Assembly: GCA_015055975.1 (NCBI GenBank)
Contig: SVHF01000010.1
Coordinates: 1-51,680 of the forward strand
Length of the DNA stretch: 51,680 bases
Source of the DNA: Clostridiales bacterium
GTDB lineage: Bacteria; Bacillota; Clostridia; Christensenellales; UBA3700
Direction: 5' to 3'
The notes under the pieces were generated by a model. That model did not search any database. It was not told the origin of the DNA and was given only the letters and a program-made list of their open reading frames with translations. Every line of letters begins with the position of its first letter. The stretch's first letter is position 1. Below are positions 33,384 to 49,737 of this stretch, piece by piece. The position numbers and the translations under genes were made by a program.

Positions 33384-35531
33384 ATGAATAAAAAAGTTTT
33401 AATATTGTTAACATTAATCGTTGTGGCAGTTTCTATGTTCGCATTTATGGGCTGTTCAAAAAACGATGATATAGGCGTTAACATTTTATCAAATCCAAAC
33501 TTCGAAGATTTAAGTTCATCAGGAAAAGAAACAAATTGGATAGTTTCAGATGCTTCAACTGTTTCTTTCGTTTATAACACACATGATGACTCATACGATC
33601 CAAAGCTTGGCAATTATTATGTTAAGTTCAACGTAGCAGGGGCGTATCAATACGTAACTCAAACTGTATCTTTAAAGAAGAATGCTCAATATATGGTTAC
33701 TGCATATATCAAAGTATCTTCAGTTACTCCAACAGGAGAAATCGGTTTTAGAATTGGTTTTGAAACAGAAGATGAAGAGTTTAAAGGATTCAACAGAATT
33801 ACAACAACAGATGATGAATGGACAACAATTACATATTATTTCACATCAAGCGAAAATGTAGATGCCAAATTCACAATCGGTGTAGGAAGCCCAAGCACAT
33901 CAGCATCAGCAGTAGCTTATGCAGATAATATTGTGCTTGCTCGTGTAGATGAAATTCCTCAAGCATATTTAGATGCAAATACAATTGAAGTTTTAAAATA
34001 TACAAAAAAATATAGTTTATCTAATGGCGGTTCAATTACTTTTGTAGTTTTAATGTCACTAGTTAGCTTATGTATAGCTGGCCTTGTATATTTCTTAATT
34101 GCTAAATCTCTAAAGCCAAAGACAAATGTTGTTGAGGCACCAAAAGAACATTCTAATTTATACAAGAAAATTAACGAAAAGATAGATCTTGAAAAAGTAA
34201 AGAGTGCATTGATGTCAGACTTTGCATTTTTTGTGTACATCTTATTTGGTTCATTAATTATTAGATTTATAGTTGCTGTATGCACATTTGGTATGACATC
34301 AAATATTGCAGCACTTGAGTCTTTAGGTGAATTAGGTAAATCTACAGGATTATTATCTTTCTATTCTATAAACGAATCAGCAACAACCCCAATTGGAGGA
34401 GTTGTAACATATACAGTTTTGGCAAACATCGCATCTTGGTTAAAGATAAAGAGTGCATCGCTTGGATACGCAATTTTAATGCGTCTTCCACAAATTCTTG
34501 CAGATATCATAGTTACATACATGATCTATACATTTGTAGCTACAAATAAGGATCAAAAGAATGCAGCTATCTATTCAGCATTCTATGCATTCATGCCAAT
34601 ATTCTTCTTCTTTACAAGTTTCTATGGCGCTATAGAGAGCATAGCTATTATGTTCTTAGTTGGCATGGCTCTTGCAATGTTAAAGAAAGATTACATCTTG
34701 CCACCACTTCTATATATGTGTGCATTATTATTTAGCAATTACGTGCTAATAATCTTCCCAGTAGTTTTAGCATATCAAGTAATTGGTGTAATTCAAGATA
34801 AGCAAACAATGTGGTACAATATCGCATCTGTTGCTATTTGTGTTGTAGTGTTCTACATGTTTGGATTCATAATGACATTCAACAGTGTAAAAGCAGGTCA
34901 AGGATTCGAATATTTTGCAAGAATCTATGATTCATTTGAAAACAACAAATTCTTATCTACAGACTCATTCAACATGTATGCAATATTTGGTGCAGCAAAT
35001 TCTAAGACAAGAACAACTCTAATTGAAGTTCTAAATTGGTTATTTGTGGCTGCTATGTCAGCTTGGCCAATCTTTGTATATTACAAGAATAGAAATAGAT
35101 TAGATTTGATTTTAAATATGGGATTAATGTTCATAGCATATGCGCTAATTGGTGCTGGATCAACAGTAGTTATCCTACCAATTGGTCTTGTGTTATTAAT
35201 GCTATATATCGCAATCGTTCCAGAAACAAGATTGTTTGCAAGCTTTGGAGCTTTAGCAACATTATCATTCTTGAACATTGCACAACTAGCATCACAAAGT
35301 GGATTTATCGCAAATATCACAGGTGCTACATATACACCATTTTTACATAACAGTGCATTCTTGATTGTGTTTAGTATTTTAACAGTACTTGCATTCTTCT
35401 ATTTGATTTATGTATCTATCGATGTAACATACTTCAATCAAGCAAACGAGATTGCGCCACTAGATGGTGGTTTTATAAAGCAAATAAAGAACATCTTTGT
35501 TAAATCAAAGGATGTTAAAAATCGTAAATAA
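33384..35531 (+). CDS. Polytopic membrane lipoprotein with N-terminal carbohydrate-binding-like domain, GT-C-like
   Basis: 715 residues. Signal peptide with lipobox FMGC (Cys about 25). Residues about 35-190 form a jelly-roll-like domain (NPNFEDLSSSGKETNWIVSD; QYVTQTVSLKKNAQYMVTAYIKV) typical of CBM4/9-type modules at the start of surface proteins. A first membrane helix at about 215-240 is followed by about ten more hydrophobic helices (275-690), with a loop pattern resembling GT-C glycosyltransferases or mannosyltransferase-like proteins (AIYSAFYAFMPIFFFFTSFYG). No clear catalytic D/E motif can be assigned by eye. A protein with both a lipid-anchored N-terminus and a polytopic C-terminus is odd. 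topA starts 8 nt later. Confidence 0.7.
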   Translation: MNKKVLILLTLIVVAVSMFAFMGCSKNDDIGVNILSNPNFEDLSSSGKETNWIVSDASTVSFVYNTHDDSYDPKLGNYYVKFNVAGAYQYVTQTVSLKKNAQYMVTAYIKVSSVTPTGEIGFRIGFETEDEEFKGFNRITTTDDEWTTITYYFTSSENVDAKFTIGVGSPSTSASAVAYADNIVLARVDEIPQAYLDANTIEVLKYTKKYSLSNGGSITFVVLMSLVSLCIAGLVYFLIAKSLKPKTNVVEAPKEHSNLYKKINEKIDLEKVKSALMSDFAFFVYILFGSLIIRFIVAVCTFGMTSNIAALESLGELGKSTGLLSFYSINESATTPIGGVVTYTVLANIASWLKIKSASLGYAILMRLPQILADIIVTYMIYTFVATNKDQKNAAIYSAFYAFMPIFFFFTSFYGAIESIAIMFLVGMALAMLKKDYILPPLLYMCALLFSNYVLIIFPVVLAYQVIGVIQDKQTMWYNIASVAICVVVFYMFGFIMTFNSVKAGQGFEYFARIYDSFENNKFLSTDSFNMYAIFGAANSKTRTTLIEVLNWLFVAAMSAWPIFVYYKNRNRLDLILNMGLMFIAYALIGAGSTVVILPIGLVLLMLYIAIVPETRLFASFGALATLSFLNIAQLASQSGFIANITGATYTPFLHNSAFLIVFSILTVLAFFYLIYVSIDVTYFNQANEIAPLDGGFIKQIKNIFVKSKDVKNRK

Positions 35532-44203: not shown

Positions 44204-47200
44204 ATGACGAATTCAGAAACTAGAAACGTGTTATTGGGAATTATCTTAACTATTGCAATAATTGCATGTAGTTTTACGATAATTACTACAATAAGCAAAT
44301 CATCAAGCGATGAAGTAGTTTATGCGGATACAACTTGGAAAGGTTCGGGTACAGAAACGGATCCTTATTTAATTACTACCGCAAAAGAGCTAGGAGACTT
44401 TAGGGATATTGTTAATGCGGCAGGTGGTGCTGAAAAACATGCTGTATTAAATAATGATATAAATCTAACGGATCTAGCGGGCACTTGGACTCCAATTGGT
44501 GTAGATGATGAAAATCCATTTGCAGGAACGTTTGATGGAAATTGTCATACGATAAATGGTTTAAGTGTTAATGATTCAACAAAAAGCCATTTTGGATTGT
44601 TCGGATATGTTACGGGGAGTTCAAAAGGAACTGAAATAAAAAACGTAACAATAAAAGGATCTGGAATTACTGCTAATTATTATGTTGGCGGAATAGCAGC
44701 AAATGTTGATGGAGGGCCACCAACAACTCCAAATTATTTCGTTAAAATTATTAATTGTCACAATTATGTGCCAATCACTGCCACTTATTCTATAGGAGGC
44801 ATCGTAGGTACTGTAGCTGGCAAAGCTCAAATATTGTATTGTAGCAATCATGCTACAATTCAAGGCGGATCTTTAACTGGTGGAATCGTAGGATATGCTT
44901 CGGGATCACAAAAGGGAGAACAAAGCACACCATGTCCAGTACAGATAGAGAATTGCTACAACGATGGTAATATAGAAGCAAGCACGGCAGGTGGAATAAT
45001 TGGAGAAGTTTCATCTCGTGTGTATGTAAAAAAGTGCTTTAATTATAAAAGTGTAACACATACATCTTCGACACAGTTAGGAGCAATAGTTGGCAATCTA
45101 AGTGAACATGGTACAGATCGTTCTTTTAATGATTGTCATTATTTAACAATTTCAGGCTCTGCTACTGATACAAAAGCAGATGGTCACAATGCAGCCTGGT
45201 TTAAAGTGGCAAGCAATTTCACAAATTTTGATTTCGCAAACGATTGGGAAATAAAAGACAATGCAAATTATCCAACATATTTACCAGAATTAAGCTTGTA
45301 TATTGCTGGACATATTGTTGCAGTCGGAAGCACTTCTGTTACTAGAGCAAATCGCGGATATCAATATGATAGACAAACTAATACTTTAATATTAAACAAT
45401 TCTACTGGATATGATGACGTATTCTTTATAATAGAGGCTCCTTCTTGGGATGCAGGAATTCGTTCAGAATTAGCCGACTTAAATATTAGAATGTGTTGGA
45501 AAGCTTCTATAGATAATAAAAATTCAGGAGAAGAATTAACAAGATATGGCATTTATTCTACAGGTAATTTAACATTTACTACATTAACTGATAACGATCG
45601 TAACGGCGTAAAAATTGTATCAAGCGATGGTACAGCAAAGAATTCATATGGTATTTACTGCGAAGGCAATATTGTTCTTGAGAGAGGATATCTAAATATT
45701 ACGGCAGGAAATGCAAAGGATGAAGGAACAAGTACTGGTATACGTGCAAAATCTTTATTGATGAATGGCGGGAAAATAATGTCAAATTCAACTTATGATG
45801 ATGCTTATGATACTTGGACAAATTGTGAAAAAGTTGGCATTAATACCGTAGATGGAATAACAATAAAAGATGGTATAGAAGCATTTATTGCTTATGGGCA
45901 TAGTTATGCGGTCATAGGTAAGATTGTGACTGAATGTTCAGGATTTGGATATTCAGGAATTCCATATGATCTAGTACAAGATACAAGTTATTATGGTTCA
46001 AGAACAAGAGCACAAGTATTCGAGTATCCAACGTATTTAATGAATGATTACACAGGTGATCATGCAATCGCAAAAGGAACATATGAGCATATGGAAGATA
46101 TAATAGTCGATCCAGCACATGATGAAGAAGAATATAATACAATAGCGATTTGGGAAACTCCAATTCATATTATGGGTCGTTTGGAATACAAACTAGATGA
46201 AGGTTATGAAGTTAATAAAATATATTATAATGACCCTAATCCTGCACCAGAAGATTACAAACATAGCGTAATCTATTCTCATTATGATCTTACCGAAGGG
46301 GCTTTGTATGATTTGGTAGAAAGTAAAGTTACTCTTACTTCTAATTATTATCAAGGTAGCACTAATTATGGATCATATAGTTTTTATAATTCTCATCCAG
46401 ATGGAGATGATGCTTTCCCATATGGAGATTATGATTATAGAATAGTTACGCATAATAGTTTCGAATTATATAAAGGAATCCCAGATCATGTTGCACCTAT
46501 TCCAAAAGCAGGATTAATTTATTCAGGTGAAGCTCAAGATTTGATTGTACCTGGATATGTTCCAGCAGCTCCAAATGTTCAATCAACAATTGAATATAAA
46601 ATAGGTTATTATGGTACATATAGCGAAGCAACTCCACAAGGAACAGAAAAAGACACATATACAGTGTATTATAGAGTAACACCTACTGATACAAATAATT
46701 ATGAAATAATCGAAAAACATTTCGATGTAACAATCTCATCATGTGATAAAACACCACTTGTAAATGCGTTAAATAATGCGTATGCATATAGGGATTCTAT
46801 TCCATCAAAGTACACATCAAGCAAGGCATCTTTTGTAAGTTACATTAATAATATAGAAAGCAGTGTTTTAAATAATGCAGATGCAACAGCAGAACAAGTA
46901 GCTCAAGCAGTTACAGGTTTAAGCGAAAAGATAAATGCAACAAAGAAAGACATTGTTGCAGAAGCAATTGATTTAATTGGGACACCAACTTATCCAACAG
47001 GAAAGCAAGCAATCTTAGATGCAATTGATGAATATAACAATTTAGATGAAGAATTGAAGCCATCATTTGATCAAGATAAGCTAAATGAGTTAGCTCAAAA
47101 AGAAGAAGATTATTTTAAAGCAATAGTAAACTCATTAAAGCCAATTGAAGACATTAAGCATACTCCTGCAACCGAAAAGGCAATTAATGATGCTAAAGAT

Positions 47201-49672
47201 TGGTTTAATAATCATCTAACAGAAGAACAAAAAGGCCATTTAGCACAAGAGTTGGAAGAATTAAATGATGAAGAAGACAAGTATGCTGCTGAAGGAGTTT
47301 CAGATTTAATTAAAGCTATCGGAAATCCAGAAGATGTTCACTATACAGAAAGTGATAAAGAAAAGATTGATGCTGCAAAAGCTGCATTAGATCAATTAAC
47401 TCCAAAGCAAAAAGCTTTAATCCCACAAAGTGATCTTGATGACTTAAAAGATGCAGATGATCATTATAAGGCAGATGAACTTGTTAATTTAGTTAATGAC
47501 ATTAATGATGTTTCTTTAGACGAAGAATCAAGAGAAAAAATTAATAAGGCTATAGAAGCATATAATGATATGTCAGAAGAAGCAAAAGCTCTTGTTCCTG
47601 CAGCTACTTTAGATAAATATGATGACGCTGTTAATCAATATAACGATTTAGTAACAGAAGATGTTACAGAAAAGATTAACGATATTGGAGAAGTTCAATA
47701 CACAGAAGCATCTAAAGGAAAGATTGAAGAAGCAATGGCTGCGTACGATGCAATGACAGATGAGCAAAAAGCTTTGTTGCCTCAAGATCTAAAAGATAAA
47801 TTAGAAAAAGCATTCAGCGATTATGATCAAATGGATGTAGATGCTACAAGATCATATATGAAAGACGAAGACAATGGCGTTGCCATTGAAACAGAGGGTA
47901 GAGGCGTTCCAAGAAACGTTGAATTAAGAGTTGAAGTAAAGACTCAAGTTTCACCAAGGGAAGGCGGCGTAAGCCCAGAAGCAATTCAAGCAATGTTAAA
48001 GAAGTCTCAAAAGATTGCAAAGATTTATGACGTTAAGCTAATTCAAACAGAAGGCGGCATTGAAAAAGAAATTCAACCTTCAGATATTAAAGAAGGCATG
48101 AAGATTAAGATTCATATGGCTATTCCAGAAGGGGTTAAAACAGAGGGATTAAAAGTATTGCATATCCATGGCGATGGCTCTATTGATCTAATTGACGATG
48201 TAACAATTGATGGAGATAATGCAATTGTTGAGGTATCAAGTTTATCTGAATTTGCATTAGTTGAAAAGACTGGGCATGGATTCTGCATTGGTTGGATAGT
48301 ATTTATCTTCGATTTATTAGTTCTAATCTTTGGCGGATTAATTGTAGCTGCTAATATCTTAGTTGCTAAAGATAATGAAAAATGCAAAAAGTTCTTAGAT
48401 AAGACAAAGACAAACTTTATGGTTACAAGAAGAAAGCTAGTATCTATTATTGGCTTAGGAGTAACTGCAGCATTGTTTATCTTTGCGCTAGTTGCACTAT
48501 GTGTACATCAATGCGCAATAACAATTATTGCATTCATCCTAGCGCTTCTAATGTTCATAGCAGTATTATGTTACTTCTTACTTGAATTCAATATTATTAA
48601 GTATGAAGATGTAAAAAAAGCATTAGATGACATTAAAAACAAGTGCAGTGCTTTGATGAACAAGAAAGATAATCAAGCTAAGAAAGTTGAAGATCAACCA
48701 AAGGTTGAAAATGAAACAAAAGACGCCCCAATGGCTGAAATTGTTGATAAAGAGACAAAAGAAGACAAGGATGTTAAAAAGACAGAAGTAGAGGCTGAAA
48801 AGGAACTTACTTCAGGAAAAGAAGAAACAATAGAGGCAATTGAAGCAAAACAAAAGGCTCATGAAGCATTGACTTTAAAAGATAGTTTAGTTCTAGCAAA
48901 ATCAACGAACTCTTCTCATCAATTCTCAAAGAAGTTTATTGCAAATTATCTAAGAACAAAAGATATTGTTGAAGTAAACGAAAGAGAGAATTATACAAAG
49001 ACTGGATTACCACTAGCAGATACACACTACGTAGATGGTAAAGACGGTAAGAAGTGTTTTGCATATGTATATGAAACAGAAGGCTCAGTTATTCTTCTTG
49101 CAAAGATGAATGAAGACTATGCAGAGAAGTTGAAACAAAAACATTCTCAAATTAATAAGTCTGCATTCCCAAAACAAAAGAATACTTGGTATAGCTTGAT
49201 TCTTGACGATACATATACACAAGGAGATGTTGAAGAGATCCTGGACGAATTAATAGGCGAAGTAAAAGAAGATTCTGGAGTGTCACTAAAAGAAAGCATT
49301 GCGCTTGCTAAAGCAAACGCTTCAGAGCAAAAGTTTACAAAAGCTTATGTATGTGAATATCTAAAGGGAAGAAAAGATGTTGAATTAAATACTAGAGAAA
49401 ATTACACAAAAACAGGTCTTCCTCTAGCAGATACACACTATGTAGAAAAAGATGGTAAAAAGGTATGCTTTGCGTATGTATACGAAATCGATGGAACAAT
49501 GATTCTTCTTGCAAAGATGAACACAAAGTATGCAAATGAATTGAAAAAGAAGCATTCTCAAGTTAACCTATCTGCTTTCCCTAAGCAAAAAGATACATGG
49601 TACAGTTTAATTATTGATGATTCTTATACAAAAGAAGATTTTGAAAAGATCATTGACGATATAAGCAAATAA
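44204..49672 (+). CDS. Giant surface protein: GLUG-like beta-helix, helical repeats, transmembrane helices and two cytoplasmic YjbR-like domains
   Basis: 1822 residues. N-terminal membrane segment (about 9-30). Beta-helix-like region (about 45-360) with GLUG-type motifs (SHFGLFGYV, VGGIAANV, IGGIVGTV, TGGIVGYA), more beta-rich sequence to about 760, and an MBG-like Ig module (about 765-845, LIYSGEAQDLIVPGYVPAAP). Five helical repeats of about 60 residues (about 915-1215) with AIxxYxxLTxEQKALxP-like pattern. A beta domain (about 1220-1355, VELRVEVKTQVSP). Three membrane helices (about 1360-1388, 1412-1430, 1435-1460). A charged linker. Two C-terminal copies (about 1556-1690 and 1692-1822) sharing ENYTKTGLPLADTHYV, FAYVYE, LLAKMN, LKQKHSQ/LKKKHSQ and AFPKQKxTWYSLI; they resemble the YjbR/MmcQ fold. 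Topology predicts the repeats outside and the YjbR-like pair inside. Function unknown. Confidence 0.8.
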   Translation: MTNSETRNVLLGIILTIAIIACSFTIITTISKSSSDEVVYADTTWKGSGTETDPYLITTAKELGDFRDIVNAAGGAEKHAVLNNDINLTDLAGTWTPIGVDDENPFAGTFDGNCHTINGLSVNDSTKSHFGLFGYVTGSSKGTEIKNVTIKGSGITANYYVGGIAANVDGGPPTTPNYFVKIINCHNYVPITATYSIGGIVGTVAGKAQILYCSNHATIQGGSLTGGIVGYASGSQKGEQSTPCPVQIENCYNDGNIEASTAGGIIGEVSSRVYVKKCFNYKSVTHTSSTQLGAIVGNLSEHGTDRSFNDCHYLTISGSATDTKADGHNAAWFKVASNFTNFDFANDWEIKDNANYPTYLPELSLYIAGHIVAVGSTSVTRANRGYQYDRQTNTLILNNSTGYDDVFFIIEAPSWDAGIRSELADLNIRMCWKASIDNKNSGEELTRYGIYSTGNLTFTTLTDNDRNGVKIVSSDGTAKNSYGIYCEGNIVLERGYLNITAGNAKDEGTSTGIRAKSLLMNGGKIMSNSTYDDAYDTWTNCEKVGINTVDGITIKDGIEAFIAYGHSYAVIGKIVTECSGFGYSGIPYDLVQDTSYYGSRTRAQVFEYPTYLMNDYTGDHAIAKGTYEHMEDIIVDPAHDEEEYNTIAIWETPIHIMGRLEYKLDEGYEVNKIYYNDPNPAPEDYKHSVIYSHYDLTEGALYDLVESKVTLTSNYYQGSTNYGSYSFYNSHPDGDDAFPYGDYDYRIVTHNSFELYKGIPDHVAPIPKAGLIYSGEAQDLIVPGYVPAAPNVQSTIEYKIGYYGTYSEATPQGTEKDTYTVYYRVTPTDTNNYEIIEKHFDVTISSCDKTPLVNALNNAYAYRDSIPSKYTSSKASFVSYINNIESSVLNNADATAEQVAQAVTGLSEKINATKKDIVAEAIDLIGTPTYPTGKQAILDAIDEYNNLDEELKPSFDQDKLNELAQKEEDYFKAIVNSLKPIEDIKHTPATEKAINDAKDWFNNHLTEEQKGHLAQELEELNDEEDKYAAEGVSDLIKAIGNPEDVHYTESDKEKIDAAKAALDQLTPKQKALIPQSDLDDLKDADDHYKADELVNLVNDINDVSLDEESREKINKAIEAYNDMSEEAKALVPAATLDKYDDAVNQYNDLVTEDVTEKINDIGEVQYTEASKGKIEEAMAAYDAMTDEQKALLPQDLKDKLEKAFSDYDQMDVDATRSYMKDEDNGVAIETEGRGVPRNVELRVEVKTQVSPREGGVSPEAIQAMLKKSQKIAKIYDVKLIQTEGGIEKEIQPSDIKEGMKIKIHMAIPEGVKTEGLKVLHIHGDGSIDLIDDVTIDGDNAIVEVSSLSEFALVEKTGHGFCIGWIVFIFDLLVLIFGGLIVAANILVAKDNEKCKKFLDKTKTNFMVTRRKLVSIIGLGVTAALFIFALVALCVHQCAITIIAFILALLMFIAVLCYFLLEFNIIKYEDVKKALDDIKNKCSALMNKKDNQAKKVEDQPKVENETKDAPMAEIVDKETKEDKDVKKTEVEAEKELTSGKEETIEAIEAKQKAHEALTLKDSLVLAKSTNSSHQFSKKFIANYLRTKDIVEVNERENYTKTGLPLADTHYVDGKDGKKCFAYVYETEGSVILLAKMNEDYAEKLKQKHSQINKSAFPKQKNTWYSLILDDTYTQGDVEEILDELIGEVKEDSGVSLKESIALAKANASEQKFTKAYVCEYLKGRKDVELNTRENYTKTGLPLADTHYVEKDGKKVCFAYVYEIDGTMILLAKMNTKYANELKKKHSQVNLSAFPKQKDTWYSLIIDDSYTKEDFEKIIDDISK

Positions 49673-49697: not shown

Positions 49698-49737
49698 GCA
49701 GTCCCTTGAGTTGTCGAGCTTGAGGGGCTGCTTTTTT
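49698..49737 (+). terminator. Terminator of the giant surface protein gene
   Basis: Stem GCAGTCCCTTGAG pairs with CTTGAGGGGCTGC (13 bp including G-U pairs) and is followed by TTTTTT at 49732-49737. Confidence 0.88.

Follow-up and report, generated by a model that had tools for sequence, protein, structure and literature searches.

The stretch of DNA analyzed here (hereafter the window, 51,680 nucleotides) carries a gene whose product, judged from its sequence and a structure model, is probably an exported, membrane-anchored giant surface protein, the last 267 residues of which form two YjbR-family double-wing domains (Table 1). NCBIfam supplies no name for this protein, and its gene lies in housekeeping surroundings that include SHMT, ThiF-type, AspS, HisS, TrmFO and TopA genes. 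Elsewhere in the window, positions 33384-35531 encode a 715-aa protein with a CBM_4_9 carbohydrate-binding domain, possibly a second surface protein.

Table 1. The giant surface-protein gene of the window and its parts (aa, residues of the encoded protein).
Feature	Position	Strand	Basis
Whole gene, giant surface protein with predicted cytoplasmic tail, 1822 aa	44204..49672	+	ORF and translation; AGGAGA-type ribosome site just 5'
N-terminal hydrophobic segment, aa 9-27 (export signal or signal anchor)	44228..44284	+	Hydropathy
Predicted extracellular part, about aa 43-1360	44330..48283	+	Weak GLUG match; 36% identity end to end with C37 paralogue
Juxtamembrane outer domain, aa 1239-1360	47918..48283	+	Common to giant proteins differing in ectodomain and tail
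Three-helix membrane anchor	48296..48568	+	Helices aa 1365-1383, 1415-1433, 1437-1455; hydropathy
Charged linker, predicted cytoplasmic, aa 1456-1556	48569..48871	+	Sequence; 49% identity with congener
YjbR-like domain 1, aa 1557-1681	48872..49246	+	Pfam, AlphaFold2 model, structure match
YjbR-like domain 2, aa 1694-1818	49283..49657	+	Pfam, AlphaFold2 model, structure match
Likely intrinsic terminator: GC-rich inverted repeat, then T run	49698..49737	+	Read by eye from sequence

The two 125-residue tail repeats are identical at 81 of 128 positions (63%, E = 9e-61), far beyond chance, and the shared blocks from which an earlier note on this DNA had read a domain duplication, ENYTKTGLPLADTHYV and AFPKQKxTWYSLI, are both present as described. 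That note had also likened the repeats to the YjbR/MmcQ fold and named the lack of a structural match as what would speak against it; a match was found both by sequence and by predicted structure. The tandem tail scores 38.9 bits against the Pfam YjbR family (PF04237), passing the curated cut-off of 30.1, the tails of relatives reach 46.5 and 56.9 bits, and a profile built from 28 tandem tails matches E. coli YjbR (PDB 2fki) at E = 4.6e-6. An AlphaFold2 model of the tandem, made from the 28-tail alignment, has a mean pLDDT of 90.5 and an identical order of secondary-structure elements in the two repeats, with a pTM of 0.58 that leaves their mutual orientation uncertain. YjbR-family entries head the VIA-align ranking of this model with Z-scores of 11.5 (2a1v), 10.0 (3h9x), 10.0 (2fki) and 8.3 (a fourth entry), well above the rest; the next rows hold the C-terminal domain of MotA (Z about 6) and secretion chaperones (Z 4-5.6), where values under 6 may reflect merely a common arrangement. 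Foldseek alone returned nothing under E 0.001 for the tandem model and placed YjbR-family entries at ranks 1, 8 and 12. We therefore assign the tail the YjbR fold, and the claim of a tandem YjbR/MmcQ fold is borne out by the Pfam score, the profile match to 2fki and Z-scores of 10-11.5. Repeat 2 by itself gives no match to PF04237 at E 0.1, and a PF04237 scan of the whole genome overlooked the tail domains, which may explain why they have gone unremarked so far. The tail also matched SPOR (22.2 vs. 21 bits); this match was set aside as a chance overlap, since it coincides with the YjbR match, the fold is that of YjbR, and it is absent from the single-domain scan.

The tail domains share with the YjbR/MmcQ family (PF04237, DUF419; 2fki, 3h9x, 2a1v) the fold, the core F/W positions and the W-x-x-x-x-D strand region, but differ from it in their tandem arrangement, an extra helical segment in front and the family-specific invariant residues K20, R38 and H52. 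Moreover, they sit on membrane proteins, whereas members of the YjbR/MmcQ family stand alone. In contrast to the tail family, the same genome also encodes a protein of 233 aa whose YjbR domain is of the ordinary, free-standing kind (L008:3437-4138, contig C37; 58 bits).

Hydropathy analysis of the window protein gives one N-terminal segment and three juxtamembrane helices within aa 1365-1455, and all topology calls here are computed from hydropathy and charge patterns. The loop between the first two helices of the window protein has nine K+R against three D+E, and the loop between the second and third has none. Across 13 three-helix proteins (L026 was left out of the charge count because the simple predictor mis-assigned it), the up to 30 residues ahead of the anchor contain 0-3 K/R, with D/E no fewer than K/R; in the first loop, 2-9 K+R outnumber the D+E; K/R are missing from the second loop; and a K/R-containing stretch comes after the last helix. 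Taking the N-terminal segment as an export signal, this charge pattern puts the ectodomain on the outer side of the membrane and the YjbR repeats on the inner side, and we infer that the tail lies in the cytoplasm. Similarly, in the listed cases of single-helix arrays (see below), translated from the ATG lying across the upstream stop codon, K/R are absent before the helix and several follow it, which places the array repeats inside as well. The cytoplasmic C-terminus proposed in the earlier note is therefore supported by the positive-inside rule in the 13 proteins and by other architectures; the note had named a C-terminus outside as what would refute it, and the charge patterns put the tail inside.

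In Gram-positive bacteria, surface proteins commonly stop at the wall, or in a single membrane helix followed by a few charged residues. The window protein resembles the LPXTG/sortase-anchored giant adhesins in its export signal, giant ectodomain and C-terminal membrane segment, but three helices replace the sorting signal, a large folded and presumably cytoplasmic tail follows, and no sortase match accompanies it: PF04203 gave no match in this 98% complete genome and was found in 3 of 14 control genomes. Membership in the sortase-anchored class was accordingly rejected, as the chain ends in YjbR domains without a sorting signal and the genome is without a PF04203 match. Tetraspanin (PF00335) was likewise rejected, at 24.1 vs. 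32.1 bits and with three adjacent helices and an outer loop of 3 residues rather than four helices with a large loop. On contig C18 of the same genome, two sister proteins have the same three-helix anchor and only a short tail; the anchor and the tail are therefore separable modules, and the tail is dispensable for anchoring.

Between the window protein and its congener in genome G001, the tail keeps 85% identity at a dN/dS of 0.088, against 45% identity in the anchor and 49% in the linker, and the G001 ectodomain is a stub of about 40 residues; by this comparison, the tail is under stronger constraint than the neighboring anchor and linker. Repeat 1 clusters with repeat 1 of G001 and repeat 2 with repeat 2, so the duplication is older than the split between the two. 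K20, R38, L46, D50, C62, F63, Y67, S97, P100 and W106 (numbered as in repeat 2) are invariant in 112 of 112 domains, and H52 is kept in 111 of them. The invariant aromatic and tryptophan positions fit the YjbR core, and the invariant residues may in part be structural; K20, R38 and H52 seem specific to the family, and this suggests one shared intracellular ligand site.

The 1.59 Mb genome (98% complete) contains three further loci with YjbR-like tails, namely a 1951-aa paralogue (C37), a 3284-aa protein (C40) and an interrupted one (C15). Relatives were found in three of the five genomes from the genus, in 3 of 46 from the family and in 28 of 297 sampled from the order, with one weak case among 391 genomes of the class outside the order. 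The tail module is a lineage-restricted family of an order with Christensenella-type gut MAGs, and the named contigs of relatives come from MAGs of Christensenella type and of other Clostridia or Bacilli, many of them from rumen. The tail has no tblastn match in phage and plasmid records and no confirmed relative in viral contigs; given this and the housekeeping neighborhood, a phage or plasmid origin was rejected.

The repeats sit behind varied ectodomains, mostly via a three-helix anchor, and four architectures occur: (i) a giant ectodomain, three helices or one, and 1-2 repeats (the window, L007, L010, L045, L049, L057, L058, L064 and others); (ii) a single N-terminal helix with as many as six repeats, the ectodomain being small or missing (L018-L025, L050, L052, L053); (iii) 2-4 N-terminal helices and repeats (L084, L095-L098, L105); and (iv) proteins without a helix (L016, L035, L036), some helix-less relatives being also without a signal. 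Two of the latter (L035 and L036) have no detected signal or helix, yet carry Listeria-Bacteroides (InlB B) repeats, which are normally extracellular, together with diverged YjbR-like domains.

In addition to these fusions, a split version recurs in a genus of another family of the same order (genus g45, family f16), where an array gene lies directly 3' of a giant surface-protein gene at all seven loci examined and encodes 3-6 YjbR-like copies on a separate membrane protein. At six of the seven loci, the ATG of the array lies across the surface-protein stop codon, with an overlap of exactly 8 nt; at the seventh (L047), the array begins 75 nt downstream. In those six, a helix and a charged tail close the upstream protein, and the array mostly stands behind an AGGAGG-type site. 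Where the contig continues, the array gene precedes a gene that weakly matches a phosphodiesterase type, and after it comes one that, from how its start reads, we take to be mnmA-like. Gene overlaps of this kind normally couple translation, and fusion in one lineage with coupling in another, a usual sign of joint action, suggests that the surface part and the YjbR array work together.

With modest confidence, we favor the reading that the tails are cytoplasmic adaptors which tether, position or read out surface proteins through one intracellular partner. Each YjbR-like domain would bind the same conserved partner, repetition would provide avidity, and the ectodomain would thereby be tethered to, positioned by, clustered by or reported to an intracellular component; the same link could be reached by two routes, fusion behind a membrane anchor or an overlapping gene pair with a 3-6-copy array. 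From the residues that are invariant across the domains, we infer that there is such a partner and that all the domains have it in common. The computed fold, repetition, constraint, fusion to many ectodomains and gene overlap, together with the missing sortase match, argue for the adaptor reading, and the sister proteins that have the same anchor without the tail and the family genomes without it (present in 3 of 46) argue against it. Of the earlier suggestion of a connector or receptor, the connector is upheld by the fusions to many ectodomains and the overlapping genes; the receptor, in the sense of passing a signal, is not.

The main rival, which we regard as unlikely, is membrane-tethered DNA binding by the double-wing domains, as a ToxR-like one-component regulator that responds to the ectodomain or a tether between nucleoid and envelope. 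The MotA DNA-binding domain has the same fold as YjbR proteins, a likeness from which DNA binding has been proposed for the latter (PMC7641849). The C-terminal double-wing DNA-binding domain of phage T4 MotA (1kaf, 5jlt) does resemble the tail domains in fold at a Z of about 6, and several tails end in uL15-like domains, of an RNA-binding ribosomal family, which adds a nucleic-acid theme; a sequence link to MotA was not found, however, and secretion chaperones of similar fold lie close to MotA at Z 4-5.6. Moreover, a basic bias is absent (mean net charge per domain -0.7, range -9 to +15, the window repeats -1 and +2), although a net charge near zero is compatible with binding as well as with its absence, and up to six copies per chain suit avidity better than a single promoter switch. 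ToxR-type one-component regulators are alike in layout only, with an outer sensor and a possible inner DNA-binding part in one chain; the window protein has no winged-helix domain, its ectodomain is giant, and its inner domain is repeated and C-terminal, the reverse of their order. A broader speculation, that a lineage-specific transmembrane system connects swappable giant ectodomains, through fusion or overlapping genes, with cytoplasmic arrays of nucleic-acid-type domains (YjbR double-wing and uL15-like) and so ties contacts at the surface physically to nucleoid or translation machinery, seems to us rather unlikely.

A purely mechanical stop, in which the folded tail keeps a giant protein in the membrane without sortase and without a specific partner, is conceivable given that this genome has no sortase match while three control genomes gave one, and the tail sequences are modular. 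It would leave the invariant residues unexplained, and we hold it to be improbable: the invariant polar residues and the dN/dS of 0.088 imply a role beyond that of bulk, arrays are found on proteins whose ectodomain is small or absent, and sister proteins of the same genome lack the tail. Still more improbable is a role in export chaperoning or quality control, with the domains holding the nascent giant protein or the secretion machinery in the manner of type III chaperones; although chaperone folds match at Z 4-5.6 and the gene overlap would place the array beside a newly made surface protein, scores under 6 may mean a common arrangement only, and in a fusion the tail is the final part to be synthesized, when it could no longer protect the ectodomain in export. 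That the tails lie outside the cell as part of an adhesin is scarcely credible: a surface protein bears them and tandem repeats are common in adhesins, but the charge pattern in the 13 three-helix proteins and the single-helix arrays, the relatives without helix or signal and the cytoplasmic nature of the YjbR family all speak against it.

The adaptor reading would give a known YjbR domain a new role, repeated and membrane-linked, with a recurrent split form. Joined to EVE, TerB or GNAT domains, MmcQ/YjbR is described in soluble proteins from defence or signalling contexts (PMC7641849); these likewise use YjbR as a module joined to other domains, but none is described as a surface-protein tail. 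The literature searched, mostly outside subscription journals, gave no description of YjbR repeats on surface-protein tails, in line with the earlier note, which knew of no described system with this layout. A conserved, folded inner module set against a freely varying outer part suggests coupling between outside and inside, whether for anchoring, clustering or sensing, and would concern a large group of uncultured gut bacteria. The tails and arrays also offer, through their putative common partner, a route to what YjbR domains bind, a point that the solved structures of these domains did not settle.

The domain order in the tails is D?-Y(1-6)-R?-L?, where Y is YjbR-like and L is uL15-like; D and R have no Pfam name. 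The uL15-like ends match Pfam Ribosomal_L27A with up to 56 bits (cut-off 21.5), and such a domain ends the predicted cytoplasmic tails of membrane or surface proteins at L010:7735-17589, L106, L109, L119, L153 and L156, a ribosomal-protein domain on surface-protein tails being unusual in itself. The window's own genome also encodes, on contig C30, a protein of 611 aa that combines two predicted helices, a long acidic linker and an unnamed domain with a C-terminus of uL15-like type (L152:1217-3052). Domain R (SFxAKLIQ...SWxxESFxxGR...GKTLCxYxPL) is conserved in L153, L156, L117 and L102 and has no Pfam match and no PDB sequence match; it was rejected as a further YjbR-like domain at an hhalign probability of 0.6%, its model (pLDDT 41) being too poor to use. 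DUF1508, a guess for segment D, had no Pfam match, and the segment was left unnamed.

Two giant proteins from different genomes (L009 near 9692 and L093 near 6290) have an in-frame TGA within or just past a membrane helix, with the tail frame staying open behind it. TGA is a rare stop in a sample of the window's genome (6 of 127), and the in-frame TGA may be a nonsense mutation, a sequence error or readthrough. At L154:987-1760, a tail of YjbR-like and uL15-like domains follows a 4877-aa giant protein in another frame and overlaps its 3' end, and may represent a frameshift or a separate gene.
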